Below, in pieces: positions 3,849 to 22,433 of a stretch of DNA of 22,433 nt; the stretch's first letter is position 1; the number at the start of each line of letters is the position of its first letter. Source of the stretch: a virus; IMG/VR virus record IMGVR_UViG_3300043466_001309, positions 1-22,433 of that record; one strand, 5' to 3'. The notes beneath the pieces were generated by a model. The model ran no database searches, was not told the origin of the DNA, and saw only the letters and a program-made list of their open reading frames with translations. A program made the position numbers and the translations under genes.

Positions 3849-3851
3849 AGT

Positions 3852-3933
3852 TGGTTGCGGAGGTAGGATTTGAACCTTTTGAGACGTCCTCTTGGTTATG
3901 AGCCAAGCGAGCTGACCGCTGCTCTACTCCACA
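3852..3933 (-). tRNA. tRNA-Met(CAU)
   Basis: Acceptor TGTGGAG/CTCCGCA, perfect D stem GAGC/GCTC, anticodon arm CTTGG-CTCATAA-CCAAG with anticodon CAT, discriminator A and encoded CCA. The variable region is long (around GACGTC), and only the inner three pairs of the T stem form (AAAGG against CCTAC). It could be elongator Met, or Ile2 if lysidine-modified. Paired T1-A72 argues against initiator tRNA. Confidence 0.82.
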
Positions 3934-3938
3934 ACAAT

Positions 3939-4256
3939 TTAATACGAACTAAACGAAACACTCATTCTTTCGAAATCAACTTCTTCTGGATTGATTTGTG
4001 AAAGATCGAATCCTTCAACTTCAAAAACCTTTTCGGTCAATGTATGGTCCATTCCACAAGATCCATTACAAGAACAACCTGAGGAATAGCACCACAAAAT
4101 CTTTCCTTCCGAATTAACTCCAATTCCTTCATAGTCATGGTGGCCGTAACCGTGTTCTTCGTTACAAATTTCTTTTACAATAACGCATTCCTCATCATCG
4201 AATGAAGACTTTGGTAGTGTATTGTAATTTTCAACAACATATTTAATGATATCCAT
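3939..4256 (-). CDS. Hypothetical Cys-rich protein in the tRNA array (105 aa)
   Basis: A 105-residue acidic protein with a good ribosome binding site (GAGGAATA before ATG) set inside the tRNA array. The middle contains a cysteine/histidine cluster: HGYGHHDYEG, then WCYSSGCSCNGSCG, which could bind metal or form disulfides. No signal peptide and no recognised family. The tail is acidic (NPEEVDFER). Its product presumably comes from the polycistronic tRNA transcript. The clear Shine-Dalgarno and biased composition support a real gene. Confidence 0.7.
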   Translation of the reverse strand: MDIIKYVVENYNTLPKSSFDDEECVIVKEICNEEHGYGHHDYEGIGVNSEGKILWCYSSGCSCNGSCGMDHTLTEKVFEVEGFDLSQINPEEVDFERMSVSFSSY

Positions 4257-4274
4257 TATTCCTCACAAATTTTA

Positions 4275-4362
4275 TGGTGGAAGCCGTGAGATTTGAACTC
4301 ACAATCCCCTTGGGGAAATGGTTTTACAGACCACCGCAGCTAACCGTATCTGCCTGACTTCC
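4275..4362 (-). tRNA. tRNA-Tyr(GUA)
   Basis: Acceptor GGAAGTC/GGCTTCC, D stem GCAG/CTGC, anticodon arm GTGGT-CTGTAAA-ACCAT with GTA, class II variable arm CCCC/GGGG, T arm GTGAG-TTCAAAT-CTCAC, discriminator A and encoded CCA. Confidence 0.93.
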
Positions 4363-4418
4363 ATTAATCTTTTCTAAAAACAAACTCAGTATCAATCGCA
4401 CGTCTATCACTAAGAATT

Positions 4419-4517
4419 TGGCGGTCTGTAGAGGATTCGACCAATGACTCCTAATCTAAAATATTAGGTGTTTTTCCTAGTCATACAATAATTTGCATAA
4501 CACTAAACTAACAGACA
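4419..4517 (-). tRNA. Degenerate or enlarged tRNA-like gene (possible UUU loop)
   Basis: A 99-nt element with acceptor GTCTGT/ACAGAC, TA at positions 8-9, D-like stem GTTT/AAAT, a GGTCGAATCC remnant of the T arm, and 3' G-CCA. The only good anticodon-like hairpin is CTAAT-ATTTTAG-ATTAG (TTT, Lys), but it lies too far from the D stem and is framed by ATGACT/AGTCAT. The T stem barely pairs. Read as a decayed tRNA or tRNA-derived stable RNA; a normal tRNA-Lys(UUU) exists at 5015-5089. Confidence 0.4.
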
Positions 4518-4525
4518 CATGAATT

Positions 4526-4599
4526 TGGTGGACAAGGAGGGAGTCGAACCCTCAAATCTGCCGTGCAAAGGCAGCAGTTTCCCATTAGCTTACTCGCCC
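4526..4599 (-). tRNA. tRNA-Ala(UGC)
   Basis: Acceptor GGGCGAG/CTTGTCC (two G-U pairs), anticodon arm CTGCC-TTTGCAC-GGCAG with TGC, T arm GAGGG-TTCGACT-CCCTC, discriminator A and encoded CCA. The G3-U70 pair that defines tRNA-Ala is present. Confidence 0.92.
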
Positions 4600-4610
4600 G
4601 TAGAAATTTT

Positions 4611-4684
4611 TGGCGGTTCGTGAGGGAATTGAACCCTCGACTTTCCGTAGACAGCGGAAGGTTTTACCACTAAACTAACGAACC
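4611..4684 (-). tRNA. tRNA-Asp(GUC)
   Basis: A clean cloverleaf: GGTTCGT/ACGAACC, D stem GTTT/AAAC, TTCCG-CTGTCTA-CGGAA with anticodon GTC, T arm GAGGG-TTCAATT-CCCTC, discriminator G (as usual for Asp) and encoded CCA. Confidence 0.95.
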
Positions 4685-4701
4685 AACTTACTATAATACT
4701 T

Positions 4702-4730
4702 AGTATACTTCTTTTAGAACATTTCGTCAA
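4702..4730 (-). promoter_or_regulatory. Sigma70-type promoter for tRNA-Asp and downstream tRNAs
   Basis: On the minus strand: TTGACG (4730-4725), 17-nt spacer, TATACT (4707-4702). It lies between the 57-aa gene and tRNA-Asp and shares the TTGACGAAA start and an AAG before the -10 with the promoter at 5694-5722. Confidence 0.6.
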
Positions 4731-4736
4731 ACTCTT

Positions 4737-4910
4737 TTACCATTTTGTTAAAGAAAAAAGAACGATACTACCATCACGATCAATACCAAACTGCATATCT
4801 TTGAATGTAAAGAACCACACTTCAAACAGATTTGAGTATTCAAGATCTGGAATCACTTCAGATAAACCAATTTCTTGAAGAGAAGAAATTACATCGTCAT
4901 TAGGTTTCAT
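4737..4910 (-). CDS. Hypothetical small protein in the tRNA array (57 aa)
   Basis: A 57-codon ORF with Shine-Dalgarno AAGGA five nt before ATG. The peptide begins MKPNDDVISSLQEIGLSEVI and continues with an aromatic stretch (VWFFTFKDMQFGID), ending SLTKW. It is soluble, acidic at the N-terminus, and not recognised. Its last codons overlap nothing, but the promoter serving tRNA-Asp begins 7 bases downstream. It is the second protein gene embedded in the array and is easily missed because of its length. Confidence 0.6.
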   Translation of the reverse strand: MKPNDDVISSLQEIGLSEVIPDLEYSNLFEVWFFTFKDMQFGIDRDGSIVLFSLTKW

Positions 4911-4930
4911 AATTATCCTTTATTATAACT

Positions 4931-5004
4931 TGGAGCACTGTGATGGAATCGAACCATCGTTAACTGTTTTGCAGACAGTTACCTAGCCTCTCGGACAACA
5001 GTGC
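4931..5004 (-). tRNA. tRNA-Cys(GCA)
   Basis: Acceptor GCACTGT/ACAGTGC, anticodon arm ACTGT-CTGCAAA-ACAGT with GCA, T arm GATGG-TTCGATT-CCATC, discriminator T (the Cys identity base) and encoded CCA. The D arm is short, with a three-pair stem at most. Confidence 0.92.
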
Positions 5005-5014
5005 AAAAATTGTT

Positions 5015-5089
5015 TGGTGGGATCGGTGAGGCTCGAACTCACAACTCCAGACTTAAAAGGTCTGTACTCTACCATTGAGTTACGATCCC
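5015..5089 (-). tRNA. tRNA-Lys(UUU)
   Basis: A clean cloverleaf: GGGATCG/CGATCCC, D stem ACTC/GAGT, CAGAC-CTTTTAA-GTCTG with anticodon TTT, T arm GTGAG-TTCGAGC-CTCAC, discriminator A and encoded CCA. Confidence 0.95.
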
Positions 5090-5172
5090 AAAATTTCTTT
5101 CATCACTTTCACATTTGATATTCACACAAACATTGAACCAACCTGACCATCAGTTTTGGATACTTAAAATTA

Positions 5173-5258
5173 TGGAGGAGGATGATAGCATCGAACTATT
5201 ATCCCTAGAGATACTACGGTTTTCAAGACCGTGCGGGGAGCCAACCCCAGCATCCTCC
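5173..5258 (-). tRNA. tRNA-Ser(UGA)
   Basis: Acceptor GGAGGAT/ATCCTCC, anticodon arm ACGGT-CTTGAAA-ACCGT with TGA, class II variable arm (TATC with GATA), T loop TTCGATG and encoded CCA. The discriminator is T, where Ser tRNAs normally have G. Confidence 0.9.
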
Positions 5259-5264
5259 AATATT

Positions 5265-5339
5265 TGGCTCCTCGGGCAGGACTCGAACCTACAACATCCT
5301 GGTTAACAGCCAAGCGCTCTACCATTGAGCTACCGAGGA
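5265..5339 (-). tRNA. tRNA-Asn(GUU)
   Basis: A clean cloverleaf: TCCTCGG/CCGAGGA, D stem GCTC/GAGC, CTTGG-CTGTTAA-CCAGG with GTT, T arm GTAGG-TTCGAGT-CCTGC, discriminator G and encoded CCA. Confidence 0.95.
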
Positions 5340-8867: not shown

Positions 8868-9083
8868 ATGATTCTCGGTTGGGTTATTACAAAGACTCAT
8901 TCCTCTGGCGTAACAGAAGTTTACGCCAGAGATTATAAAGAATCATGTTTTGGATATTTTACGCCGAAGATTTCTGAATCTTATATCTTTCGAAATCGTT
9001 CGGCTGCTGAGTTAGAATTTAAGAATTATATAACTATTGTTTCGGAATCATTTGAACTGGTTCCGGTAGAAGCTTATATCTAA
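8868..9083 (+). CDS. Hypothetical protein (71 aa)
   Basis: A 71-residue protein starting MILGWVITKTHSSGVTEVYAR, with alternating hydrophobic residues (beta-strands) and a C-terminal FELVPVEAYI. Not recognised. Its ATG directly abuts the preceding stop. The 3' end overlaps the convergent glycosyltransferase gene by 4 bases, marking the border between the early plus-strand genes and the minus-strand glycan operon. Confidence 0.7.
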   Translation: MILGWVITKTHSSGVTEVYARDYKESCFGYFTPKISESYIFRNRSAAELEFKNYITIVSESFELVPVEAYI

Positions 9084-9988
9084 CTCAAGAAATTAACCCA
9101 ACCTAGGATGTGTTTTCCCCAATCATAGTTCTCTCTTGCGAACTCTTGAATGTCGAGGCATTTTTTATTATATGCTTCTGGATTCTTTTGATAATATTCA
9201 ATAGATTCTTTCAGAGCAGAACAATATTGATCCTCTTCAGGATAACCCATAGGAAGAACTACACCACCACCTTTATGTCCATAATCTTCGAAATATCCAA
9301 CTGGTGTTGATAAGACTAATCTTCCTGCTGCAGCTGCTTCCATAGAAGGCAATCCAGCAGATTCTTCAATAGAAGACACTGCCAATGCATCGATTGAGTT
9401 ATAATAACCTGGCATACACATCCAGTTATAGAAATTATGTTCCACTAATTTAACTTGTGGAATTTCTGTTGCAGTCTGTTTAACTAGATGACCACGTTTA
9501 ATCTCTACATCGAAGAAATTCTTAGTCTCTTTCGCCCCACCATATCCTAACTTCTCAAGTTTTTCCGAAGGTTTCCTATAGAAGGAGTCGAAATGAATTC
9601 CAAAAGGAATTACATCAGGAATTCTTTCGACTCCAAATTCTGCCGCTTTATTCTTCAATACATTAGAAACTACACCAAATTTTTTAATTTGATTGTAGAA
9701 GAGATTACCGAAATCTCTTCTAGCAAGAAGCATATCCCACTGTCCATGAGCAACTGTTGCTAATTTTTCAGGTGGAATTCCTAGTCTGTTCAGATGAACA
9801 ATCGCTTCCGGATTAGTAACGAATAGATCGTAGGAGTCGTTTAATAAACGAATTTCATCAGGAGTATAGTGTTGTGTCCAATCAAGCAGATTGGCAATAA
9901 TTCCATACTTGTATAACTCTTTCTCTAATCCTCTGTGGATTGCAGCAAATGCCCATCTAGATTGTGTGTAGAAAATAACTTTCTTCAT
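9080..9988 (-). CDS. Glycosyltransferase, GT4-like (302 aa)
   Basis: A GT-B fold glycosyltransferase of the GT4 type. The C-terminal domain shows the family acidic motif as SSIEESAGLPSMEAAAAGR (EX7E-like, about residues 212-230), followed by LVLSTPVGYFEDYG, where the nucleotide-sugar is bound. The N-terminal half (MKKVIFYTQSRWAFAAIHRG) is the acceptor-binding Rossmann domain. 302 residues is on the short side, and the usual central G-R-L-x-x-K-G motif is not obvious. Last gene of the glycan operon; its ATG follows the previous stop with no gap. Donor and acceptor cannot be read from sequence. Confidence 0.82.
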   Translation of the reverse strand: MKKVIFYTQSRWAFAAIHRGLEKELYKYGIIANLLDWTQHYTPDEIRLLNDSYDLFVTNPEAIVHLNRLGIPPEKLATVAHGQWDMLLARRDFGNLFYNQIKKFGVVSNVLKNKAAEFGVERIPDVIPFGIHFDSFYRKPSEKLEKLGYGGAKETKNFFDVEIKRGHLVKQTATEIPQVKLVEHNFYNWMCMPGYYNSIDALAVSSIEESAGLPSMEAAAAGRLVLSTPVGYFEDYGHKGGGVVLPMGYPEEDQYCSALKESIEYYQKNPEAYNKKCLDIQEFARENYDWGKHILGWVNFLS

Positions 9989-10726
9989 TTATGAAGCAAC
10001 CTTATCACCTAATAACATTTTGAATCCATTATTATAAGCATATTTGAAATATTTCGCCATATGAGGAATTCCACCATTTCCAGCTGTAGCTACTGCGTCA
10101 CCACCATATTCCCATCCTTTCAATGATCCCCACATTTCTCTATCTGATAATGGATGTGGCGGAACCCAAGTCTTGTATTCAGAATACTTCTGAAGCATCC
10201 AAGAGAAATGCATATCTTCACCAACTGAGAATTCGTGATTAATAGGAGGCAATTCTCTACAAAAATGAGTGATCATATCTCTATGGAAGAACCAAGCGTG
10301 ACCACCATAATCAACCATTTCTGGTTTTTCGTTGGGGTTATCCCAACCAATACGTTTCTCATATCCAAAATTGGAATTATTGATAATTACACCAATAGTT
10401 GTGTGAAGTCCAGGATGATTCTTCTGAGTCTCTAAACAATTCTCGAACCACTTCTTACCTGGAATAGTATCATCATCGAAAATACAAACCCAATTTGTTC
10501 TAGCATTCAAAGCATAATAGAATCTAGACCATACTCCAAAATTTGTGTTTGAAATAGAAGAAACACATTTATTAATATATGTATTATCGTATTGAACTCC
10601 TGGCATCGAATTCTGCCAATACATAATATGCTTCGGCTGAATTGTTGATGTTGTTACAGCATCAAATTGTTCTTTTAAATTTTCAGGCCGTCTATATCCA
10701 TTTAGCACCACAGTTATATCATTCAT
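9989..10726 (-). CDS. Glycosyltransferase, GT2-like (245 aa)
   Basis: A GT-A fold transferase. The N-terminus is ITVVLNGYRRPENLKEQFDA, the usual first strand and nucleotide-binding loop. The metal-binding DxD appears as FDDD (83-86) in VCIFDDDTIPGKKWF. The acceptor side carries GGHAWFFHRD and a GEDMHFSW motif, which corresponds to the catalytic ED region of GT2 enzymes. No transmembrane segments, so it is cytosolic. It starts 4 nt after the stop of the GT-D gene. Confidence 0.85.
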   Translation of the reverse strand: MNDITVVLNGYRRPENLKEQFDAVTTSTIQPKHIMYWQNSMPGVQYDNTYINKCVSSISNTNFGVWSRFYYALNARTNWVCIFDDDTIPGKKWFENCLETQKNHPGLHTTIGVIINNSNFGYEKRIGWDNPNEKPEMVDYGGHAWFFHRDMITHFCRELPPINHEFSVGEDMHFSWMLQKYSEYKTWVPPHPLSDREMWGSLKGWEYGGDAVATAGNGGIPHMAKYFKYAYNNGFKMLLGDKVAS

Positions 10727-10730
10727 TTTA

Positions 10731-11441
10731 TTAAGAACCCCATGTACAAGTTAATTTTGAGTGAAAAGAATCTGGTTGATAGTAACCTCTAATATTTATA
10801 TCTGAACCCAACCAAGGATGTAATGTTGAACCAATATCAAGATATGTATTATTTTGATTGGTTTCCCATAGACTTTGAGATAATATCTTACCCAAAGGAC
10901 CACAAGCAAATAAGAAGATCTTATTACTTGATCGCATATTTTTAATAAAATCTATAACAGCCAAATCATTTACCCAAGCATTATAACCAACACCAATAAA
11001 TGTGCAAGGAAATGGAAGATTGTCTACTTGTGATTTACTATTAGCAATCAATACAATATCTTTCTTCTTGAATTCAGGTATAAAATTATCTACGAAAAAT
11101 TTATAATTGGAATTTACGAAGATATTAGCAAAAGTTAAATTATCTTCATGTTGACCGCTCACATCTTTCATATTTTGAAAATTCGCTTGTCCTTGACAAC
11201 ATGGACAAACTATTCCGACATAATAATTTGGATCTCTGTATGTAAATGATTTATGTAAAAGCGATCTTGCAATTTCATATTGTGGCTCAGGACCATTAGT
11301 CATCCATTCCCCATAACCAGATGCAATGGTCTCTTTTCTTAGTGCAATCATTTCACCGTCACCGAATCTGGCTAACGCAAAATGTTCACCGGAATTAATT
11401 TTATTTAGAAATTTTTCTATTTCATGATTAAAGTATTTCAT
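10731..11441 (-). CDS. GT-D type glycosyltransferase (DUF1792/SP_1767-like)
   Basis: Near the N-terminus ALARFGDGEMIAL (23-35) carries the DxE motif (D28, E30) that defines the GT-D fold, first seen in a streptococcal DUF1792 glucosyltransferase. Further on, FIGVGYNAW and LFACGPLGKILSQSL are the usual Rossmann-like glycine motifs of this family. 236 residues matches a single-domain member. CPCCQGQ is an unusual Cys-rich insertion that could bind metal. It overlaps the upstream GT2 gene by 4 bases (ATGA). It probably extends a glycan started by the other transferases. Confidence 0.8.
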   Translation of the reverse strand: MKYFNHEIEKFLNKINSGEHFALARFGDGEMIALRKETIASGYGEWMTNGPEPQYEIARSLLHKSFTYRDPNYYVGIVCPCCQGQANFQNMKDVSGQHEDNLTFANIFVNSNYKFFVDNFIPEFKKKDIVLIANSKSQVDNLPFPCTFIGVGYNAWVNDLAVIDFIKNMRSSNKIFLFACGPLGKILSQSLWETNQNNTYLDIGSTLHPWLGSDINIRGYYQPDSFHSKLTCTWGS

Positions 11442-12079
11442 ATATGGATTTTATCTTGATTATTATTCCACCAATTTGTTTCATCTGAAATTATTTGTGG
11501 TAAGTTGTATTTATTGATTACCTCAGAATTACCTGATGTGATAGATATAGTATTGGAAACTGCTGAACCTCTTACAACATATAATCCGAATCTCTTCAGA
11601 TTTATTAGGAGAAAAGTGTCACCCCACATTATTTTTAGTTGTTCCGGTATATGTTTGTATTTATGTTTATGTACAAACATCATACATCCAAAAGCAAATG
11701 GCCAGTCTTGAATCTGTTCTATTCTAGGTTCACCTTCATTATTGTAAATATCTATACCAATCAATCCTACGGATAATAACAAATCTTCGTTAATTAAATT
11801 GAAAATAGATTTATCGAATGTAATATCATCATTAAGTAAACATATTGAGTTATTTTTAGATATATCAACTCCAAGATTCCAAGAAGGATTGACGAAGATA
11901 TTTTGATGTTTATTGATAACAGTTATCTTGCAATTATTCAAAATATCCCATTTCGGGGTGTTAGTGGAATCATTGTTTATGATGATAATTTCATCTATCT
12001 GATCGACAGAAATCAGATCAAATAATAATGTTTGAGTTGTTTCACATTTCCAGAGAGTTGGTATAATTACAGTTATCAT
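11438..12079 (-). CDS. Glycosyltransferase family 2 (213 aa)
   Basis: Begins MITVIIPTLWKCETTQTLL, the classic GT2 first strand, followed by IIIINNDSTNT and NPSWNLGVD (WN-G motif). The DxD is NDD (83-85) in CLLNDDITFD, binding metal and nucleotide-sugar. FAFGCMMFVHK is the donor/acceptor loop. The small size (213 residues) means a minimal GT-A domain; the C-terminal part is reduced. The 3' end overlaps the GT-D gene by 4 bases. Confidence 0.83.
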   Translation of the reverse strand: MITVIIPTLWKCETTQTLLFDLISVDQIDEIIIINNDSTNTPKWDILNNCKITVINKHQNIFVNPSWNLGVDISKNNSICLLNDDITFDKSIFNLINEDLLLSVGLIGIDIYNNEGEPRIEQIQDWPFAFGCMMFVHKHKYKHIPEQLKIMWGDTFLLINLKRFGLYVVRGSAVSNTISITSGNSEVINKYNLPQIISDETNWWNNNQDKIHI

Positions 12080-12083
12080 AATA

Positions 12084-12716
12084 TTATCTCGTATTTCTAT
12101 CTAGTTTGACGTATTCGTTATCGTGTGATAGTGCTTCAACATCATATATGAAATGTATATTCTCTTCTCCGATTTTTGGAGCCAACCTAGAATATGTTGG
12201 ATGTAGATCTGGACAATCTAATCTGTGTGGTTTTTCATACACATCTTGAACAGATTCTATTAGAGGAAGAATATACTTTTTAGGGAATACACTAAAATAT
12301 TGTGGATCTGCAGTATATCTATGATTATCCCACCATCCCTTTTCTCTGAAGAAGAAATTGAATTTTTCTGGATCTATATTATAATTGCTAATCGAGTCAT
12401 TGAATAATATATCAAATCTTGTAGAAACAATCAGATCTATATCTTCTTCTATCATCGATTCTAAAGATTTCTTATAAGTTGTTCTTAAATCAGAATTAGA
12501 ATATTGGATTAATTGATGTTTCTTGGGTTTATATTTATCAATTAGTTCTTCTTGTGTTTCATTGTGATAAGTTGTTATATAAATATTCGGATTCTCAAAA
12601 GTATATATTAAATTCTTATTGATATTTTCGTATCCTCTTCGCCAATCCCGCCCTCTATCACCATATGATATTCCACACAAATTAATAGCAACACGCATGT
12701 TAGTAAATATTGACAT
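12084..12716 (-). CDS. Putative glycosyltransferase-like protein A (210 or 204 aa)
   Basis: Not a clear family member, but it shares a pattern with its upstream neighbour: a strand ending in IYITTYHNETQEELIDKYKP, followed about 60 residues later by DLIVSTRFDILF (R-x-D in place of DxD). Together with WDNHRYTADPQYF this suggests a GT-A-like transferase. Two starts are possible: ATG 12716 overlaps the upstream gene by 17 bases; ATG 12698 (MRVAINLCGISYGDRGRDW) begins one base after the upstream stop and fits the start of the fold better. Neither has a strong ribosome binding site. Confidence 0.6.
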   Translation of the reverse strand: MSIFTNMRVAINLCGISYGDRGRDWRRGYENINKNLIYTFENPNIYITTYHNETQEELIDKYKPKKHQLIQYSNSDLRTTYKKSLESMIEEDIDLIVSTRFDILFNDSISNYNIDPEKFNFFFREKGWWDNHRYTADPQYFSVFPKKYILPLIESVQDVYEKPHRLDCPDLHPTYSRLAPKIGEENIHFIYDVEALSHDNEYVKLDRNTR

Positions 12717-13485
12717 ATCTTCTCAATTCCTCTTCAGTAAAACCATATTGTATTATGTCAGAAATTTTCAATTTATTAGAAGCGATCATTGAAGTGTGTA
12801 TATATCTTATCGGAGCCTGGTGTTCACCAGCAATAATATTATCATTTCTTATCGGAACTCTGATAATTTCTTGTATGTATTTAGGGAATAATTTGTGTTC
12901 TAATGGAGGGTTATTGGTTGAGATAGAATCCCATGCATCTTTAAATAATAGCATATTTTCATAATTCATTATGAAATGGAAATCGCCTCGATAATCTTGA
13001 TAATTGTTTAGTGTTATGCAATTAACATCATATTCAGAAAGAATAACATTTTTCCATATTAGAATATCTGGTCGATAAAGGATAACGAGATCGTAACTAA
13101 TTCCTTGAGTCTTAACCCATTCGTCTATCAATTCACAACCTAGCTTTATTGATAACGAATGTGATGCGATGGCAAAGGAATTGTGATTGACTCTAGATTG
13201 TTCTAATTTAGATATTATGATTTCTTTGTATAAATTGTTATCTTCGAACTTATATGCAACTGGTTTGTATAAACTTGTTAAATTTTCTTGTATGTCTGGA
13301 TTCCATGAATGTATAAAGAAATCGAATTTATAGTCTGAATTCGGTTCTATGAAATGTTTGACAATAGAATTATATGCTGCGACATAATTAATGTATTCGC
13401 CTTCTCTATATAATTGTCCAGGTAAATCGAATTTACCTGTGACTTTAGATACAGCACCTTTAATTAGAAAAGCTACTCGTTTCAT
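12700..13485 (-). CDS. Putative glycosyltransferase-like protein B (261 aa)
   Basis: Begins MKRVAFLIKGAVSKVTGKFDL. A strand with FFIHSWNPDIQENLTSLYKP is followed by DLVILYRPDILIW, in which RPD takes the place of the DxD. The next gene has the same two landmarks at similar spacing, so the two are probably diverged duplicates. A later NYQDYRGDFHFIMNYENM resembles acceptor-side motifs of capsule-type transferases. Exact family not recognised; cytosolic. It overlaps the cupin gene by 4 bases. Confidence 0.6.
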   Translation of the reverse strand: MKRVAFLIKGAVSKVTGKFDLPGQLYREGEYINYVAAYNSIVKHFIEPNSDYKFDFFIHSWNPDIQENLTSLYKPVAYKFEDNNLYKEIIISKLEQSRVNHNSFAIASHSLSIKLGCELIDEWVKTQGISYDLVILYRPDILIWKNVILSEYDVNCITLNNYQDYRGDFHFIMNYENMLLFKDAWDSISTNNPPLEHKLFPKYIQEIIRVPIRNDNIIAGEHQAPIRYIHTSMIASNKLKISDIIQYGFTEEELRRYVNIY

Positions 13486-13802
13486 ACCAAATATTTATCT
13501 CCAGGAGCACTCGGAACCTTAATACAAAGTATAGTACAATCTTCAACAAATATTGGTTCAGAAATTTCATTTGGTTGAATTATGAATATATTTCCTGAAT
13601 TTAAAGTTCTATCTGCTATAATCATTTTACCTGAAATTAGAATATTATATTCCGTAGCAATTTTATGATAATGCGCTGGCCAGTATTCGTCTTTCTTGTG
13701 TGTGAGTATACCAATTTCAAAGCCTTTTGTTCTAATAATATTAGGTTCAAAATCACCAACAACCCAACCACGAAAAAACTCAGATAAGTGTTTTATAATC
13801 AT
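13482..13802 (-). CDS. Cupin-domain protein (106 aa)
   Basis: A single small cupin barrel. The first cupin motif is clear: PAHYHKIATEYNILISGKM, with H44, H46 and E51 as metal ligands and the conserved Gly at 58. The second motif (GNIFIIQPNEISEP) keeps G and P but lacks the usual His. The start FFRGWVVGDFEPNIIRTKGFE is typical of a family found beside nucleotidyltransferases in surface-glycan clusters. It could be a sugar isomerase/epimerase or bind a sugar-phosphate; the reaction is unknown. It overlaps the nucleotidyltransferase gene by 4 bases, so both proteins are likely made in equal amounts and work on the same intermediate. Confidence 0.82.
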   Translation of the reverse strand: MIIKHLSEFFRGWVVGDFEPNIIRTKGFEIGILTHKKDEYWPAHYHKIATEYNILISGKMIIADRTLNSGNIFIIQPNEISEPIFVEDCTILCIKVPSAPGDKYLV

Positions 13803-14512
13803 AAGTTCCGTCTAATAAGATACTTTTCAAGATCTTCGGGAATACCTACAGCATTATGCTGCTCATTTGGTATGTGATGAATACCAATCTCGTATCCTTT
13901 AGAAATTAGATAATTATATGAAGGACCAATATAAAATTCAGAATTATATCTTTCTCCATTCGAGATCATTTGTTCTGCACTCTCAACAAAATATCTACCA
14001 CGTTTCCAATAATGAATTCCATTCAAGCTAATGTTGCTTATAACTTGTTTTTCTTTAACCTCAACAACACGCCCTTTAGTGTTTATTTTGGCATAACTAT
14101 TTTTGTTAGAATTTTCATAATATGTCACTATAGTCCCATCATATAACTTACAAGTATTGAGAAAAGTTTTTCCATCCCAATTCATAATTTGATCGCAATT
14201 AGTAATAAGCAATTCAGTTTCGTTATCAATTAATTCTTTGGCTAGTAGTGCAGAACAAGCCGGACCTTCTGTGGTGTAATCAATATCAATTATTCTGCAA
14301 TCCGGTTTGATTTTTCTTAAAATTTTGTCTATGGCATATTCTTCAATATGCCATTTTTGGACCACGAATATATAGTCGCCTTCTAAATCTAATGATTCGA
14401 TTACATATTCAATAAGAGGTCTGTTATTTATTTTTATTAGAGGTTTAGGTAATGTATATTCTGTATTGTTGAATCTGGAACCTCTTCCAGCCATAGGAAT
14501 AAGAATATGCAT
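13799..14512 (-). CDS. Sugar-phosphate nucleotidyltransferase (237 aa)
   Basis: NTP-transferase family (as in glucose-1-phosphate thymidylyl- or LicC-type cytidylyltransferases). MHILIPMAGRGSRFNN carries the GxGxRF signature and LPKPLIKINNRPLIEYV the catalytic Lys in PKPL. The metal-binding Asp is in ITNCDQIMNWD. It should activate a sugar- or polyol-phosphate with an NTP. At 237 residues it has the core only, with no left-handed helix acyltransferase domain. It lies between the methyltransferase and the cupin. The NTP and sugar cannot be deduced, but this gene implies that the operon makes its own activated donor. Confidence 0.88.
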   Translation of the reverse strand: MHILIPMAGRGSRFNNTEYTLPKPLIKINNRPLIEYVIESLDLEGDYIFVVQKWHIEEYAIDKILRKIKPDCRIIDIDYTTEGPACSALLAKELIDNETELLITNCDQIMNWDGKTFLNTCKLYDGTIVTYYENSNKNSYAKINTKGRVVEVKEKQVISNISLNGIHYWKRGRYFVESAEQMISNGERYNSEFYIGPSYNYLISKGYEIGIHHIPNEQHNAVGIPEDLEKYLIRRNL

Positions 14513-14514: not shown

Positions 14515-15153
14515 TTAGATTCTGTAAGCAATACTCAATCCATAATCGTCGTCGTGTTCAAAATATTTTTCTACTCTATACATACTTTCGTCTATTGCAG
14601 GTAGAAATACAACTGGACCAGGATGTGAATTTGTATCGTGGAAAATAACAATACCATCTTCCGATAGCATGTCGGTATACAACCAATCATTGATTACCAT
14701 ATTAACCGAATGCCAACCATCGATTAACAAGATAGAAATTTTATCCATTCCAATTTCTTCGGCATATTTACGAATTGTGGTTTGATTCGCCGAATTCTCA
14801 CGAATAGTATACACTCTCTTCTCTTCATTATTCAAATAAGACTTATCATCTAAATCAATACCTAGATATGGAATATTATCTGGTTTATTTGTCAATAACG
14901 CATTAGTGAAAGAACCTAGACCGTTTCTAGATACTCCTATTTCGATAATACCGTGCGTCATGTAATCTTTACACACCTTATCTACTAGATCATATGAGTT
15001 TTTGGTAATTTCTACATTATGTCCAGCAGTCCATGTAAAATTCCAATCATCATCGTTACTGTATTGAGACATCTGGGGTTTGAATTTCAATCCCTTAATA
15101 TCTGTATTATGTTCTATGATGTTAATATAATGATTGTTGATAGTTATATTCAT
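14515..15153 (-). CDS. SAM-dependent methyltransferase (Methyltransf_24-like, 212 aa)
   Basis: A class I methyltransferase fold: motif I GIIEIGVSRNGLGSF (E71-I72-G73), the acidic end of strand 2 in YLGIDLDD (D100), and ILLIDGWHS (D145, H148), then IVIFHDTNSHPGP (H172, D173). The DG-H and HD pair is typical of the sugar/macrocin-type Methyltransf_24 family, which modifies sugar hydroxyls and often binds a metal. It probably O-methylates the glycan or its precursor. The ATG overlaps the RuBisCO-like gene stop by 4 bases (ATGA), so the two are translationally coupled. Confidence 0.85.
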   Translation of the reverse strand: MNITINNHYINIIEHNTDIKGLKFKPQMSQYSNDDDWNFTWTAGHNVEITKNSYDLVDKVCKDYMTHGIIEIGVSRNGLGSFTNALLTNKPDNIPYLGIDLDDKSYLNNEEKRVYTIRENSANQTTIRKYAEEIGMDKISILLIDGWHSVNMVINDWLYTDMLSEDGIVIFHDTNSHPGPVVFLPAIDESMYRVEKYFEHDDDYGLSIAYRI

Positions 15154-16340
15154 CTAATAATTCCCCATTTCTCAATTGCAATTCTATATTCTTCGCCTTC
15201 ATTTCCATCAATTGATTGTCTCATTGCCAATGCCCCAGAAAGTGTTCCTCCAGGATGACCATGAACTGCTCCACCAGCATTTGCTAGATAATCAAATCCA
15301 ACTAGATTAGTTATTTTTTGAATTAATCCTGGATGCATTCCACAACTCAATGCTGGAGCTGTATTACCAGCTCTGAGAATATCTAAACACTCTAGAATCT
15401 CGTCTGGGTCGTCGTTACTATATCCACCAACCATACCAGTTTGGATAGTATCAACACCCATCAAAGTTGCTAATTTACAGATAACTGGCCAAGAAATACT
15501 GAAACGATGTGAAACGTCCGTGAATATTTTGGCACCACTACTCTGTAAATGTAAGAATAGGGGTAAGTTAGATTTTCTTATACTGTTATATACACCTAAA
15601 CCACTATAAACATTGATGTGTACACCATTACCACCATTCTGATAAACTGAATTAATTCTATCCATAACAACATGTGGATCACAATTAATTGTGTGACAGA
15701 AAATAACTTTTCTTGATTGTTTCGATAGATAATTTGCAATAATATCTACACGTCTCTCAAGTGGAGCACATAGAGGATTACTCATGATTTCATCTTCTTT
15801 AATAAAATCTACACCACCATCAACCATTTGCTTAACCATTTCTAATAGAACTTCTGGTGTAATTCCAATTTTAGGTTTAACAATACTACCGAATAATGGT
15901 TTATTGTATTGGTTTGTAAATTTTCTGATACCAGATAACCCAAATCTCGGACCAAGAAAAGATCCGGTGACAGAATCTGGTAGATGCAGGCGAACTAATC
16001 TACATCTTTGAATAATATTGATGTCTAAATGTCCACCCATTAATTGACATAATAGATGCGAAATACCATCAGTATCCCAATCAGTATTAATTATTGGAAA
16101 TGCAATCTTTACGATACCTGAAGTACCATTAAGTAGAGTTGTTTCATCACCTAAAATCATACAAGAATGATTTTCGAACAGGTAATCAGTTTCCCATTCG
16201 TTCCTGACATTAGGATTACCTACACTCTGTCCTATTGCGATATTCCATGCTGCTTCTCTTAGATTAGTGGAAGATTCAACTAGATATTCAGCAATAATAT
16301 ATTTTTGATCGTCATCTAATTGTTCAACGAAAAGATTCAT
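15150..16340 (-). CDS. RuBisCO-like protein (RuBisCO large-subunit superfamily)
   Basis: A full-length RuBisCO-superfamily protein (396 residues). The N-terminal ferredoxin-like domain ends with WNIAIGQSVGN; the TIM barrel follows. Aligned by eye to spinach: SIVKPKIG keeps K175 and K177 (here K155, K157); GGVDFIKEDE keeps the carbamylated K201 and metal ligands D203 and E204 (K181, D183, E184); LSCGMHPGL keeps S379 and G381; HGHPGGTLSGALAMRQ is the family signature. Lost are T173 (Ile), H294 (Gln), R295 (Ser), H327 (Gln) and loop-6 K334 (Tyr region). Carboxylation is therefore unlikely; enolisation, isomerisation or decarboxylation of a sugar phosphate fits better, as in form IV proteins. GAGGTGA lies 9 nt before ATG, inside the end of the GDPD gene (17-base overlap). 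The form needs a tree. Confidence 0.92.
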   Translation of the reverse strand: MNLFVEQLDDDQKYIIAEYLVESSTNLREAAWNIAIGQSVGNPNVRNEWETDYLFENHSCMILGDETTLLNGTSGIVKIAFPIINTDWDTDGISHLLCQLMGGHLDINIIQRCRLVRLHLPDSVTGSFLGPRFGLSGIRKFTNQYNKPLFGSIVKPKIGITPEVLLEMVKQMVDGGVDFIKEDEIMSNPLCAPLERRVDIIANYLSKQSRKVIFCHTINCDPHVVMDRINSVYQNGGNGVHINVYSGLGVYNSIRKSNLPLFLHLQSSGAKIFTDVSHRFSISWPVICKLATLMGVDTIQTGMVGGYSNDDPDEILECLDILRAGNTAPALSCGMHPGLIQKITNLVGFDYLANAGGAVHGHPGGTLSGALAMRQSIDGNEGEEYRIAIEKWGIIR

Positions 16341-16800
16341 TTAGAATCACCTCATACTTAGTAATATAATCTGAACAAATTCCAAAACAAGTTGACAATT
16401 TATTTGCATTGGATTCGTCGAAATTTAACTCAGGAAGAACATGAATTGAGTTATCGATTATATTTATACTAGGATAAGCCCAAATAACTCCATTACTCGT
16501 TAATGTAGCAATATCAGAATCGTGTGTGAAATAAATTAGATCAGAATAACATTTATTGAATAATGATAAACTCACTGTATCTTTACAGTGAGTCCACAAT
16601 TTATCTTTTCTAGCCAATAACCAATCGATGTCAATCTTATGATGAGGATAATCGTGGCCCAGATATATTTCTGAATTATAGATTCTAACATCTATTTCAA
16701 CATCATAACCGATAGAAATCGCATGATCAATATATCCTGGATCATTTTCGTAACATCTATCAGGTCCTGATAGATTACCACGATGAGATATAAATCTCAT
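16324..16800 (-). CDS. GDPD-like phosphodiester phosphodiesterase (158 aa)
   Basis: A short TIM-barrel-type glycerophosphodiester phosphodiesterase domain. FISHRGN gives the catalytic H6-R7, CYEND the E18-N19 pair, YDVEIDVR the metal ligands E35 and D37, and IYLGHDYPHH the second catalytic His (H49-D50). All core residues are present, but at 158 residues it is only about two thirds of a usual GDPD (about 240), so the last barrel strands are reduced. It may release or trim a glycerol-phosphate-type head group, or act on a phosphodiester-linked glycan. No signal peptide: cytosolic. It directly precedes the RuBisCO-like gene. Confidence 0.8.
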   Translation of the reverse strand: MRFISHRGNLSGPDRCYENDPGYIDHAISIGYDVEIDVRIYNSEIYLGHDYPHHKIDIDWLLARKDKLWTHCKDTVSLSLFNKCYSDLIYFTHDSDIATLTSNGVIWAYPSINIIDNSIHVLPELNFDESNANKLSTCFGICSDYITKYEVILNESFR

Positions 16801-16804: not shown

Positions 16805-17968
16805 TTACGCTCTCTTAATCCCTGCTGGATAATAACGATTCAACCATTCTAATTCATCCTGGTGATCGTCTTCCGCATACCAACCTTTTCCAGTATATAC
16901 GTTATGAACCATGGTGAAATAATGTTCGTACATTCTAGCAACACGATCTAAAGAAAAGTTAGCCATTGCCCAATCTCTACAATCTTGTGGATTGATCTTG
17001 TCAATATTCTTAGCCGCCCAAGAGAATTCTGAGAATGAACGACAACGATAACCAGTTACTCCGTGTAAATTATTCTCTGCGTGTGAACCCCAATCTGTTG
17101 TGATAATAGGACAACCTGCAAAAAGAGCTTCGATAGATGCTCCACCAAAAGGTTCGTTGAACATAGAAGGAAGCCAGAATCCCTTCGCCTTAGAGAGTAC
17201 CTTCTTTCTATCTTCTGCATTAAGGTATCCGATAACTTCGATCTGACCAGGAATCTCTTTATATCCATGCTCCTCAAGAGAACCTTGTCCTGCGATCTTC
17301 AATTTCAACCCAAGTTTTTCACAGACTTGATAGGCAACATCAATACCCTTTCCAGGATAGATTCTACCCATGAATAGAAGATAATCATCTTTCTCTTTTG
17401 AAAATTCAAATTCATCTGGATCGAAATAATTAGGAATCACAGCATGATACCAGGATTCTTTGCACTGACCAACAGCTTCATGACCACCAACAGCAGAACG
17501 AATGGCATATGATTCATAGATTCGCCAAGGAGAGAATTGGCCTGTAGCATATCCAATACCAGGCTCTACGATAATCATATCGTCTACAAACGCATCACAT
17601 ACTGGTTTATTACCCCATCCCCAGAAAGGTAGAATGAAATCGTTTGGTTGTTTTCTCTTTTGAATTTCTCTAATAGCGTTCTTATAGAAAGTTTGATAAG
17701 CATGATCATTCATATCAAACTTAAAGAAATTCTTGCGCCAATCAAAATCACCATATGCTTTCTTAAAATCGTCATTGGTAACAACCGTAACATGTTCCGT
17801 ACACTCTAGTTCGGAATCTTCGTGACCATAATGAATAACTTCGTGTCCACGTGAGACCATCATTTTCCCGAATTTGCGTGTCTTTTGTCCGTACGCACAA
17901 GCCGAAAATTCTGCATTAGTTACTACATGTGGTGGTGGTAGAATATGAAATCTAAACTTTTGACTCAT
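16805..17968 (-). CDS. Glycosyltransferase family 4 (387 aa)
   Basis: A full-length GT-B enzyme. The C-terminal donor domain is canonical: LLFMGRIYPGKGIDVAYQV, a LKIAGQG strand, then MFNEPFGGASIEALFAGCP (EX7E-type) and IITTDWGSHAENNLHGVTGY. The N-terminal acceptor domain has FRFHILPPPHVVTNAEFSACAYGQ and HEVIHYGHE. At 387 residues this is the usual GT4 length. It is the first gene of the glycan operon, with AGGAG 5 nt before ATG and a sigma70 promoter 17 bases upstream. The leader is only about 10 nt. Confidence 0.9.
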   Translation of the reverse strand: MSQKFRFHILPPPHVVTNAEFSACAYGQKTRKFGKMMVSRGHEVIHYGHEDSELECTEHVTVVTNDDFKKAYGDFDWRKNFFKFDMNDHAYQTFYKNAIREIQKRKQPNDFILPFWGWGNKPVCDAFVDDMIIVEPGIGYATGQFSPWRIYESYAIRSAVGGHEAVGQCKESWYHAVIPNYFDPDEFEFSKEKDDYLLFMGRIYPGKGIDVAYQVCEKLGLKLKIAGQGSLEEHGYKEIPGQIEVIGYLNAEDRKKVLSKAKGFWLPSMFNEPFGGASIEALFAGCPIITTDWGSHAENNLHGVTGYRCRSFSEFSWAAKNIDKINPQDCRDWAMANFSLDRVARMYEHYFTMVHNVYTGKGWYAEDDHQDELEWLNRYYPAGIKRA

Positions 17969-18144: not shown

Positions 18145-18717
18145 TTATACTCCAAATGCGATCTTATATAAATCAATTTTAGTTGTAGATCCTGCTGCGG
18201 CGGATGCAATTAATCTTATATTTCCACCAGTGATATTGGTTGTATAAGTTACTAGAGGATTTGCTGAAGTATGTACTCTAGAGTATTCGGATATATTAGC
18301 TGTTGTTCCATTATGGATCAATAGAATTTCAGAACATTGGAAATTTGTGAGGTATGAAACTTGTAATACATATTTCACTGTTCTGAATGTAGATATAGGC
18401 GATTCATCGATAACAGTTTCTGTAACACCAATATTTGTGATTCTTTTACCAGAAATTAATGCTGGATCAATTGAAAGTTGTCCAGTCATTGTTAGTGTAT
18501 TAGTTTCTTTGACCCATGTTAATCCTGTTGCCCCAACTACAGATGTATTATCTAGATACAACAATTCACGATTAGATCCAGAAAATGTTCCTGTCGCTCC
18601 AGTAAAACCAGTCGCACCTATTCCTGTAGAACCTTGATTACCTATTGTGCCCTGAGTTCCTATTGATGCAACTTTTACAGTCGTTGATGATGGTATTGTA
18701 ACTGTTATATTTGACAT
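18145..18717 (-). CDS. Collagen-like virion protein (190 aa)
   Basis: A short N-terminal beta segment (MSNITVTIPSSTTVKVAS) leads into glycine-triplet repeats (GTQGTIGNQGSTGIGATGF, residues about 20-45) that can form a collagen-like trimeric rod. The C-terminal 130 residues are beta-rich (TVKYVLQVSYLTNFQ, ILLIHNGTTANISEYSRV) and look like a fibre-head domain. It is probably a tail or neck decoration/whisker protein. It starts 1 base after the preceding gene's stop and is the last gene of the structural block on this strand. Confidence 0.72.
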   Translation of the reverse strand: MSNITVTIPSSTTVKVASIGTQGTIGNQGSTGIGATGFTGATGTFSGSNRELLYLDNTSVVGATGLTWVKETNTLTMTGQLSIDPALISGKRITNIGVTETVIDESPISTFRTVKYVLQVSYLTNFQCSEILLIHNGTTANISEYSRVHTSANPLVTYTTNITGGNIRLIASAAAGSTTKIDLYKIAFGV

Positions 18718-19066: not shown

Positions 19067-20092
19067 TTAATATTCCGTAATAGTTGTATTTATTGTATAA
19101 ACATCATCTCTATCTGCTGTAGATGGATTGACGGAAACTGTTGTTGTTACTAATTTTTGTGTAGTATCTAATTCGTAAAAATTAGTAACAGCATTTTTAA
19201 TAATCTTAGCATCAGAAATTGGTGGATAAATCCAAGAGTTTGCAACAAATGTTAACGTCCATGTTAAAATTCTATCATCTTCTACTGATCCTTCATATTC
19301 ATCTGATTGTGAAACTGATGTTAAAGTAATTTGCACATCCCTCTTCATATCAATAGATGGTATATCGTTCAGAGTAATGGTATAAAAAGGAGTGAAATAT
19401 GGAAGAATCTGTTCTATAATTTGTAGACCATCATCAATATATTTAACAAATAAATTAACAGTAAATTCAAAATTATAAGGAACTGGATTATACTGTCCAA
19501 TATATGTTGTTTTTAACGTAGAAATACCGGAACCTGGTGCGATTAAATCAATTGCTGTTCCGGCTTCAGCTAAAGATTTAGAAGAAGCGAGTTTAATTGT
19601 ATTGTTAGTCGTCTTAATTGTGTAATAAGTTCCACCATCAAAAAATCCTGTTGCTCCAATTGAATTTCCAGATCCTTTAATATAAGTTACTGATTGACCA
19701 GTTCTTAAATTATGTGACGGGATAGTTATGGTATTTTCACTTACATTAACGGCACTTGAAGCATTAAACGTCAAATCATTTTGTGGAACAAATATATTCT
19801 TTCCAATAGTTTGTTGTTTTCTTGTTGAATCATATGACATAGAAGTTAACTCAAACGATAATCTTGGAAGAATAACTTTTACATCAACATAATTATCTCT
19901 TCTCTGAACATCTTGTTGCTGTAACATCGTGATGGTTTTATCTGCAGATGCGTATGCAAGTGGAACTTTAATGGTTTTTTCTATCGATCCATCTTGATTA
20001 TATCTTAAGACTCTTATATTATTAAATAGAGAACCAAAAGCTGCAGTCAGATTTCTAATTGTAGAGAAATAAAAGTTTGATGAATTTAACAT
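19067..20092 (-). CDS. 15: Tail sheath stabilizer, T4 gp15-like, with inserted domain
   Basis: Equivalent to T4 gp15, the terminator protein that caps the tail and joins it to the neck. Matching landmarks: FYFSTIRNLTAAFGSLFNNI at the N-terminus, KVPLAYASADK, VILPRLSFELTSMSYD, then YNPVPYNFEFTVNLFVKYIDD, QIIEQILPYFTP and LTFVANSWIYPPISDA. At 341 residues it is about 70 longer than T4 gp15 (272). The excess is an inserted beta domain at about 107-193 (TITIPSHNLRTGQSVTY, GATGFFDGGTYYTI, NNTIKLASS, AGTAIDL), a module seen in many phage tail proteins. The gene lies after gp14 as in T4. Confidence 0.88.
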   Translation of the reverse strand: MLNSSNFYFSTIRNLTAAFGSLFNNIRVLRYNQDGSIEKTIKVPLAYASADKTITMLQQQDVQRRDNYVDVKVILPRLSFELTSMSYDSTRKQQTIGKNIFVPQNDLTFNASSAVNVSENTITIPSHNLRTGQSVTYIKGSGNSIGATGFFDGGTYYTIKTTNNTIKLASSKSLAEAGTAIDLIAPGSGISTLKTTYIGQYNPVPYNFEFTVNLFVKYIDDGLQIIEQILPYFTPFYTITLNDIPSIDMKRDVQITLTSVSQSDEYEGSVEDDRILTWTLTFVANSWIYPPISDAKIIKNAVTNFYELDTTQKLVTTTVSVNPSTADRDDVYTINTTITEY

Positions 20093-20115
20093 TTAATACA
20101 CATATTCCTTTATAA

Positions 20116-20754
20116 TTAATTATTGATATTAGAAAAAGGATTTGACTCTGTGAAGTCTATTATAATATCGGATTTAGATTGTATTTTATCGTTCTTAGCA
20201 AATGGATCACCAATTCCTGTAGCACCATCATTATTATAAGTTACATTAACTTCATCTGCTTCAGTACCAGTGTCAATAGTTTCATTAGAATATTTAAATA
20301 CTTCGCAAGTTAGAATAAAATATTGTCTCGCCCCAAGAGGAAATAGAGGATTCTTATCATCAACATATTTAATTTCGAAAAGGGATCTTGCTGTAGGATA
20401 CATTATAAGATCACCTTCGACTGGAAGAACCTTTCCTACAATAGATTCAAATCTTTCTCTAGAAACAATTAATCTTAATCTATCACCTAGAGTGAATCCA
20501 AATTTAGAAATTAAAGCTCCGTCCCCAAGAAATGCTTCATAATTCTCTATGTACATTTCTATTACAAAATTTCTCTCGAATTTAGATATATAATCTTCAC
20601 GATATAATTCATCAACATTAACAATAGTTCTTGGTAAATAAACAAAATCACATCCTGCAATTTGTATAGATTCATTTACCAAAACTTGGAGAAGATTCTG
20701 TTCTTCTGTAGAACCTATACCACGACCGGATTGAAAAAATTTATTAGTTGGCAT
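20116..20754 (-). CDS. 14: Neck protein, T4 gp14-like
   Basis: Head-completion/neck protein. Landmarks shared with T4 gp14: NKFFQSGRGIGSTEEQNLLQ at the start, ESIQIAGCDFVYLPR, YREDYISKFERNFVIEMYIEN, and SKFGFTLGDRLRLIVSRERFE. It should join gp13 at the portal vertex to close the filled head and receive the tail. 212 residues; the C-terminus (GATGIGDPFAKNDKI to ESNPFSNINN) is a low-complexity tail. It starts 3 bases after the gp13-like stop and is presumably co-transcribed from the late promoter at 21538-21545. Confidence 0.9.
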   Translation of the reverse strand: MPTNKFFQSGRGIGSTEEQNLLQVLVNESIQIAGCDFVYLPRTIVNVDELYREDYISKFERNFVIEMYIENYEAFLGDGALISKFGFTLGDRLRLIVSRERFESIVGKVLPVEGDLIMYPTARSLFEIKYVDDKNPLFPLGARQYFILTCEVFKYSNETIDTGTEADEVNVTYNNDGATGIGDPFAKNDKIQSKSDIIIDFTESNPFSNINN

Positions 20755-20757
20755 GAT

Positions 20758-21522
20758 TTATCCAATAAATAGATCCAACGGTAATTGTAAATCTTTAGTG
20801 AGTCTTGTTTCTAATTTTTCTATTTCAGTTATAGCTTCTGAATATATTGCATCACCATTAATTGTTATACCGCCTGGCAAATTCATATTTCCAAATTTCT
20901 TAAGATTCTCGCCCCATTGTCTTTTAATTAGAGCTGTAGCATATTCCTTAAGAAATTCGTCAGCCCAAATATCGTTAAAAGTATTGATATCTAATTTCTT
21001 GTAAATTTTCAAAACAATATTGGATGTTTTCTCTTTTAATAAAGAGAGCGGTTCGTTGAATCTAATTCTATTTGTTTTTCTATTAAAGTTAAAAGAATTT
21101 AATGGTGATAATGACATCTGCATAGTAGCAAGATACGACTTCATAGAATCTAAATAAGCTAAATTATTTCCTATAATATTTGATGTATTATAGAAATCGT
21201 TCATATAGAACTGATATTGTGCATTAAATAGATCGCCACTACCAACTCCTGTAGAAACGTCATTACCGACAGGAAGTGCAGATATTACAGAAAATACTTT
21301 TTCATCTAGAGTAATATATCCATTAGTTACATCCGTATTAGTTATAGGAACAATAAGATAATCTTCTTCAACGCCATCAAAATGATAATCAAAATATTTC
21401 GTTATGGCATCATCGATTCTATCATCAACTTGTTCTTCTGCAACATTTATTTCTATTACAGGAAAACCTAGTCTTCTTAAACAGTAATCGGAAAATTGTT
21501 CTCTAGTTGTTGGCGTTGCCAT
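20758..21522 (-). CDS. 13: Neck protein, T4 gp13-like
   Basis: Head-completion/neck protein. The C-terminal part is the most diagnostic: FLKEYATALIKRQWGENLKKF, then MNLPGGITINGDAIYSEAI and EIEKLETRL, ending LPLDLFIG, as in gp13 of T4-like phages. The N-terminus (TREQFSDYCLRRLGFPVIEI) and NVAEEQVDDRIDDAI are also typical of connector proteins. 254 residues, compared with about 309 in T4. It is the first gene of the neck/tail block, with GGAG 6 nt before ATG, a late promoter immediately upstream and a terminator before that. Confidence 0.9.
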   Translation of the reverse strand: MATPTTREQFSDYCLRRLGFPVIEINVAEEQVDDRIDDAITKYFDYHFDGVEEDYLIVPITNTDVTNGYITLDEKVFSVISALPVGNDVSTGVGSGDLFNAQYQFYMNDFYNTSNIIGNNLAYLDSMKSYLATMQMSLSPLNSFNFNRKTNRIRFNEPLSLLKEKTSNIVLKIYKKLDINTFNDIWADEFLKEYATALIKRQWGENLKKFGNMNLPGGITINGDAIYSEAITEIEKLETRLTKDLQLPLDLFIG

Positions 21523-22052: not shown

Positions 22053-22433
22053 TTGATTAGAAATATAATAATTTCTATTGCTTTTTGCACGCTTGTTTTT
22101 AGCTATGATACAAGCAATAGAAATGTAAACTGTATGACACAAGCAATTTATCACGAAGCAAGAGGAGAATCTTATATGGGGAAAATTGCAGTCGGACATA
22201 TAATTCTAAACAGAATAAAAAAAGGATATGGAACGGATCCTTGTGAAATAGTTTCTAGTAAGAGACAATTTTCTTGGTATGGAAAAAACAATTCCATCAA
22301 AGAACGAGATAGATGGGATGAATGTTATAGATTATCAAAAAAGATTCTTGCAAATGAAACTCAAGATCCAACCAAAGGATCTATATTCTTTCATGAGAAG
22401 AGTATCAACCCAGGTTGGAAATATAAGAGAATA
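22053..22433 (+). CDS. SleB/CwlJ-type cell-wall hydrolase with signal peptide (partial, runs off the window)
   Basis: Starts at TTG with AGGAGA 5 nt upstream; no in-frame ATG is better placed. 127 codons are visible and the frame is open at the edge. The first 17 residues (MIRNIIISIAFCTLVFS) are a hydrophobic signal or signal-anchor. Next, MTQAIYHEARGESYMGKIAV and GHIILNRI are the catalytic core of the Hydrolase_2 family (germination-type N-acetylmuramyl hydrolases; the Glu in HEARGE is the key acid), followed by CEIVSSKRQFSWYGK and, near the edge, GSIFFHEKSINPGW. It probably degrades peptidoglycan as an exported (SAR-like or Sec-dependent) endolysin. Such enzymes are common in alphaproteobacteria and their phages. 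Confidence 0.88.
   Translation, partial: MIRNIIISIAFCTLVFSYDTSNRNVNCMTQAIYHEARGESYMGKIAVGHIILNRIKKGYGTDPCEIVSSKRQFSWYGKNNSIKERDRWDECYRLSKKILANETQDPTKGSIFFHEKSINPGWKYKRI

Follow-up and report, generated by a model that had tools for sequence, protein, structure and literature searches.

What would a RuBisCO-like gene do in the middle of a phage glycan operon? We addressed this question for a window of 22,433 nt that is an entire IMG/VR record (IMGVR_UViG_3300043466_001309), in which a RuBisCO-like protein (RLP) is encoded within a tightly packed, co-directional glycan block of a T4-like tailed phage. The RLP gene shares 17 nt at its start with the GDPD-like gene and 4 nt at its stop with the methyltransferase-like gene, while the next junctions downstream (NTPt, cupin-like, and the following gene) are a 2-nt gap or 4-nt overlaps. 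Glycosyltransferase-like genes flank the RLP block on both sides, followed by tail and head-joining genes. The main features are as follows.

19067..21522 (-): tail sheath stabiliser, head closure Hc2, and head-tail adaptor Ad2 (PHROGs 9e-70, 5e-57, and 2e-37)
16805..17968 (-): glycosyltransferase family 1, upstream gene of the block (Glycos_transf_1 1.4e-18; phage glycosyltransferase PHROG 4e-154)
16324..16800 (-): GDPD-like protein, 158 aa (HRG...EN...E-D...GHD motif; GDPD profile and partial fold match)
15150..16340 (-): RuBisCO-like protein (RLP), 396 aa (PF00016, fold, and clade)
14515..15153 (-): methyltransferase-like protein, 212 aa (weak Methyltransf_24, E 1e-4, below the Pfam cut-off)
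13799..14512 (-): sugar-phosphate nucleotidyltransferase (NTPt), 237 aa (NTP_transf_3 4e-8 and NTP_transferase 5e-7, both over the cut-off)
13482..13802 (-): small cupin-like protein, 106 aa (HYHxxATExN motif; PHROG of unknown function)
12700-13485 (-): putative glycosyltransferase-like gene, by operon position (no Pfam match; PHROG of unknown function)
12084-12716 (-): putative glycosyltransferase-like gene, by operon position (no Pfam match)
11438-12079 (-): GT2 glycosyltransferase-like, alone among the genes of 9080..12079 in passing the Pfam cut-off
10731-11441 (-): GT-D-like gene (Pfam/PHROGs, below the Pfam cut-off)
9989-10726 (-): GT2-like gene (Pfam/PHROGs, below the Pfam cut-off)
9080-9988 (-): GT1-like gene (Pfam/PHROGs, below the Pfam cut-off)

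The phage origin of the window is confirmed by the PHROGs structural genes at 19-21.5 kb and by 15 tRNAs. The neighbours named in the initial annotation (methyltransferase-like, nucleotidyltransferase, cupin-like, and glycosyltransferase-like genes) are all present, some of them weakly matched; the cupin-like gene has no Pfam match, so "cupin" is read from its motif. Elsewhere in the window, the predicted tRNA genes are clustered at 3132-5339 (-), with unusual calls for tRNA-Asn (att) and tRNA-Ile (tat), and a homing-endonuclease-like gene lies with them at 2507-3118. A protein with a short collagen-like glycine-repeat stretch (18145-18717, -), which has no PHROGs or Pfam match, adjoins the tail genes, and a cell wall hydrolase (22053-22433, +; PF07486 1.7e-16) is cut by the window end.

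Identity and placement of the RuBisCO-like protein

The initial annotation had read a RuBisCO-superfamily ORF exactly at 15150-16340 (-), and Pfam, PDB sequence matches, and AF2/Foldseek agree with it. The ORF matched PF00016 (RuBisCO_large) with an E of 2.8e-34 and 119 bits against a cut-off of 30.1. A PDB sequence search returned 99 distinct sequences at E<=1e-3, and all 60 of these 99 matches that were listed are RuBisCO or RuBisCO-like. The AF2 model (pLDDT 87.7, with low confidence in the N-terminal loop at residues 40-42 and the loop-6 region at 304-308) found form III RuBisCO as its top Foldseek matches (TMq 0.88-0.89), with MtnW structures near too. By catalytic-domain profile and by fold, the protein belongs to the RuBisCO superfamily, and the motifs cited as its signatures (KPKIG, GGVDFIKEDE, and HGHPGG) are present.

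Active-site residues were tabulated in spinach numbering for 103 phage-set sequences, possibly with a few divergent ones from single cells or MAGs among them, and 15 cellular sequences (118 rows); two divergent cellular rows (MKEH and HRIH subtypes) were left out. An independent profile-profile alignment (hhalign, E 4.5e-73) gave the same motif register. K175, K177, K201, D203, E204, S379, G381, and G403 are invariant in all 118 rows, and every row carries the replacements D202 to E, H294 to Q, K334 to Y, G380 to C, and T65 to N (one gapped row in the last case). In window numbering, Lys181 is K201, Asp183 and Glu184 are D203 and E204, and Y307 occupies the K334 position. The invariant K181, D183, and E184 predict a carbamylated-Lys201/Asp203/Glu204 triad; the carbamyl lysine, metal ligands, and enolising core that had been described as kept are, with carbamylation as a prediction, kept throughout the alignment. 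The same annotation listed H294, R295, H327, and K334 as replaced. All four are replaced in the window, and the losses of K334 and H294 are family-wide and hold in every aligned sequence. R295, however, is K in 60/103 phage-set rows and in every tabulated cellular member, with S in the window's group, and H327 is kept in 49/103 phage-set rows and every tabulated cellular member and is Q in 54/103, including the window. Because these two positions vary across the family, two of the four replacements listed there characterise a subgroup. The family is under purifying selection (pairwise dN/dS median 0.11).

Maximum-likelihood trees were built under two models, leaving out form II, IV-AMC, IV-DeepYkr, R. 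rubrum-type, and IV-GOS sequences, the last four of which are named RLP groups. Phage and cellular members formed one clade (support 100/99, recovered in all sampled bootstraps), and the phage sequences sit inside the spread of the cellular ones. The clade stands apart from forms I and III, from IV-Photo (the C. tepidum and R. palustris RLPs), and from the OiaX/four-carbon-acid-sugar group. Its sister is MtnW (96/88 in one tree and 99/92 in the other), with long stems on both sides (0.5-0.9 for the RLP clade, 0.8-1.7 for MtnW). The tree that the initial annotation had proposed thus leaves the protein outside the carboxylating forms I and III, and Tyr and Gln stand throughout the family where loop-6 Lys334 and His294 would be found, in keeping with the original view of an RLP and not a carboxylating RuBisCO. 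Loss of these carboxylation residues assigns it to form IV. On sequence grounds, we consider the family a distinct, previously unplaced form IV branch, as judged from trees with forms I and III, IV-Photo, MtnW, and the OiaX group.

Comparison with known systems sharpens this placement. Form III RuBisCO (P. horikoshii, T. kodakarensis), which provided the best structural and sequence PDB matches, shares K175, K177, K201, D203, E204, S379, G381, and G403 with the RLP, but H294, H298, K334, T65, and W66 are replaced in the RLP, which scored 162 bits against the form III model (cut-off 497). MtnW/YkrW (DK-MTP-1-P enolase, form IV) carries out enolase chemistry without CO2; like the RLP, it has the RuBisCO fold, keeps K201/D203/E204, and has lost K334. 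The two are ~25-27% identical over the structural alignment and differ in the RLP signature N65, E202, Q294, Y334, and C380, as well as in K177, which the RLP family keeps and which MtnW and the other form IV groups compared have lost. Their contexts also differ, with glycan genes around the RLP and methionine salvage around MtnW. OiaX (3-oxo-isoapionate-4-phosphate decarboxylase) and the RLPs of four-carbon-acid-sugar-kinase loci share the superfamily and the metal/carbamate triad, and their sugar-acid phosphate substrates are a further likeness. In contrast to the RLP, this group keeps H294, R295, and K334 and lacks K177 (the RLP is the reverse for H294, K334, and K177), forms a separate clade, and has sugar-catabolism-type neighbours. 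The curated OiaX model gave the RLP 139.4 bits against 700, with Y307 in place of K334.

Distribution among phages and cells

Scanning IMG/VR with the single protein gave 56 loci, and scanning with the alignment gave 297 relatives, of which the best 80 were retained. The RLP was not found in GenBank phage records by protein or DNA search, and the BFVD viral structure library gave no convincing RuBisCO-fold match (best TMq <=0.41 among the top matches). Cellular homologues are few: SAR11 single cells, Legionella, Azospirillum, an Elusimicrobia MAG, a Verrucomicrobiia MAG, and DPANN archaea, and some of the MAG or single-cell matches may be phage DNA. The RLP occurs in 2/297 genomes of the SAR11 order and 4/22 Legionella genomes; among 398 Pseudomonadota surveyed, one Legionella reached a member-level score (569 bits; next best 204). 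The family is carried by many aquatic phages; as viral contigs often contain it and cells seldom do, phages appear to be its main carriers. The initial annotation had proposed a glycan role specific to phages; this part did not stand, since the family is also found in bacteria and archaea.

In the open-access papers searched, we found no report of phage RLPs or viral RuBisCO, nor of RLPs tied to polysaccharide or capsule, nor anything relevant under IV-GOS. The Global Ocean Sampling survey described 65 marine sequences outside the known RuBisCO forms (PMC1821046), and the passages of that paper available to us assign them neither a phage origin nor a gene neighbourhood or function. The RLP family could be among these unplaced homologues.

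Some SAR11 RLPs (loci L060-L062) fall among the phage sequences in the tree. One of them, L062, has the same host genes of hflK/hflC type beside it that the SAR11-type RLP copies have, and a phage-like RLP beside SAR11 host genes points to exchange at one site. This suggests exchange of the RLP between phage and SAR11. The SAR11 locus beside hflK/hflC/degP-like genes (L060-L062, L065-L070) holds either a SAR11-type or, in L062, a phage-type RLP. Two SAR11 loci also encode a second, divergent nucleotidyltransferase relative with a degenerate GxGxRF motif (L069:9240-9977 and L066:9493-9951).

Gene partners and what stands in place of the RLP

A search of viral contigs for the same neighbourhood had been suggested in the initial annotation, and the gene coupling recurs. 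Because conserved patterns were used to find the loci, which also share ancestry, the counts within five genes of the RLP are not independent: an NTPt at 103/116 loci (nearly always on the same strand), a GDPD-like gene at 82/116, a cupin-like gene at 76/116, and a methyltransferase-like gene at 42/116. The NTPt is the strictest partner, followed by the reduced GDPD-like protein and the cupin, and the median gap to adjoining same-strand genes is about -4 nt. The operon coupling first described therefore holds for recurrent glycan genes, and for the NTPt above all, but the methyltransferase-like gene accompanies the RLP in only about a third of the loci.

The NTPt family profile matches PDB 4evw (E 5e-31). 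It neighbours the RLP in most cellular loci, and the coupling recurs in Legionella, SAR11, Elusimicrobia, Nanoarchaeia, and Verrucomicrobiia records; the GDPD-like gene and cupin were not recognised in the Legionella RLP loci. The GDPD-like family has invariant H6, R7, E18, N19, E35, D37, and H49, and its profile matches GDPD structures (E 1.4e-3). Its AF2 model (pLDDT 93) best matches the GDPD 1zcc as a partial fold (TMq 0.60), and at 158 aa, against about 230-250 aa in GDPDs, it has no GDPD Pfam match. A full-length GDPD (PF03009 1.2e-21) lies within the Nanoarchaeia RLP locus. The cupin-like family conserves HYHxxATExN. A DUF7796-like family (SGQ.R...HTW; L197:7125-7862 and relatives) recurs beside the NTPt/GDPD-like pair in phages and has look-alikes in SAR11; its members are perhaps glycosyltransferases. 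Phosphonate-type activation was considered, and no PEP mutase was recognised among the scanned neighbours; a CDP-2-glycerol-type pathway was also considered and set aside, as a literature search gave no support.

The GDPD-like and NTPt genes also pair without an RLP. RLP-free NTPt relatives are fused to a beta-phosphoglucomutase-like HAD_2 domain (S-CAM9, B23) or, in Bellamy-type phages, to RpiB (PF02502 3.9e-32) beside PfkB-like, KdsC-like, and cupin genes; the PfkB-like proteins match part of the PfkB profile only. Among 79 loci gathered via the GDPD-like gene, HAD_2 or RpiB/PfkB/KdsC sets occur in 59/69 loci without an RLP and in 1/10 with one (Fisher p 4e-6, not corrected for kinship). Among 129 RLP loci, HAD_2 occurs in 8, RpiB in 1, and PfkB-like and KdsC-like genes in 0, and 11/14 long RLP contigs (102-327 kb, possibly incomplete) carry no HAD_2 relative. 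Since eight of the 129 also hold HAD_2, the replacement is not strict, and HAD and RLP may act in series.

The median identity of HAD-fused NTPts to the nearest RLP-locus NTPt is 65.5%; among RLP-locus NTPts the pairwise median is 42%. The RpiB-type NTPts are ~44% identical to the RLP type and may have a different substrate. A quick NTPt tree, in which some branches are long, requires the RLP label to change 5 times, and supported branches force at least 2 of these changes. Legionella offers the clearest case of alternation: the four RLP-bearing genomes of the 22 carry an RLP and NTPt divergent from the adjoining LicD, and four RLP-free Legionella have the LicD orthologue (66-68%) in an operon with a HAD_2-NTPt fusion. 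Phosphotransferases of the LicD family draw on nucleotide-activated donors; the Legionella protein matches Pfam LicD at 7e-43, with a cholinephosphotransferase match below the cut-off.

The NTPt-RpiB fusion of Synechococcus phage Bellamy (L135:4489-5646, +) is annotated as a phosphatase, and an NTPt-DHBP synthase fusion (PF00926 5e-65) of Synechococcus phage S-SKS1 (L137:5067-6494, -) as DHBP synthase only. The latter was seen in one phage (two records), where the GDPD-like match is absent, and a tetrulose or pentulose nucleotide pathway is possible there. DHBP synthase acts on ribulose-5-phosphate.

Proposed role and competing readings

The recurrent gene context indicates that the RLP probably supplies or shapes the phosphorylated substrate of the NTPt for a surface glycan. 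Its near-constant link to a sugar-phosphate-activating enzyme makes the reshaping of a small phosphorylated sugar, and not CO2 fixation, its probable task, and the replacement of K334 and H294 speaks against CO2 chemistry. The pattern of retained and replaced residues, together with the sister relationship to MtnW, leads us to infer enolase-isomerase chemistry; by analogy with RuBisCO, RpiB, and DHBP synthase, a pentulose phosphate would be the likeliest substrate. Our leading proposal, to which we give a little under an even chance, is that a form IV RLP helps to make an activated donor, a sugar or a polyol, for a surface glycan via an enolase-isomerase step. Slightly more tentatively, we propose a biosynthetic RLP isomerase that makes the sugar phosphate of the NTPt, fills the step taken in sister pathways by a phosphomutase-like HAD domain or an RpiB isomerase, and circulates between phages and hosts such as SAR11.

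In the proposed mechanism, Mg2+ would be held by carbamylated Lys181 (K201), Asp183, and Glu184, and a ketose phosphate, bound at the glycine-rich phosphate site (G334, G356, and G357), would be enolised with the assistance of Lys155 and Lys157. As the loop-6 Lys and His294 are absent, the enediolate would be reprotonated at the neighbouring carbon rather than carboxylated, yielding an isomerised sugar phosphate that the NTPt would then activate. Attachment would follow by the LicD-type phosphotransferase in Legionella or by phage glycosyltransferases. In RLP-free modules, the beta-phosphoglucomutase-like HAD, or RpiB with PfkB-like and KdsC-like proteins, would fill the RLP step. To our knowledge, RLP functions have so far been confined to salvage or catabolism; glycan-donor biosynthesis, if true, would put RuBisCO chemistry to a new use.

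Genomic neighbourhood does not tell isomerase, enolase, epimerase, and retro-aldol steps apart, and the RLP could serve the same pathway through C-C cleavage, epimerisation, or action after nucleotide activation. The enolising core would suit retro-aldol or epimerase steps too, the GDPD-like and cupin-like neighbours are of unknown role, and some loci contain both the RLP and a HAD_2-NTPt. However, MtnW, the nearest clade, is simply an enolase, and retention of the phosphate-site glycines favours a small phosphorylated substrate, so we consider such other chemistry unlikely, though a serious competitor to an isomerase step. A decarboxylase or carboxylase like OiaX or RuBisCO is improbable. It would fit the superfamily and the retained K177 of true RuBisCO, but every member has Tyr in place of K334, a residue found in forms I and III, in OiaX, and in all other form IV references but MtnW; every member also has Gln in place of H294, and the trees place the RLP outside the RuBisCO and OiaX groups. 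Residues, tree, and context led us to reject a carbon-fixation gene.

The sister relationship to MtnW could also be taken to mean a methionine-salvage enzyme carried as an auxiliary metabolic gene. Against this, long stems separate the two clades, the active-site letters differ, the curated MtnW models gave 151.6 bits against a cut-off of 409 and 124 against 513.6, and no mtn-type neighbour was found among the recurrent RLP neighbours examined. We give this reading hardly any credence, and a methionine-salvage gene was rejected in view of the residues, tree, and context. Activity is known for no member of the family, as would suit a non-catalytic structural or regulatory protein that retains the RuBisCO fold. 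This too seems very improbable, as the metal and carbamate residues are invariant in 118 sequences that evolve at a dN/dS of ~0.1.
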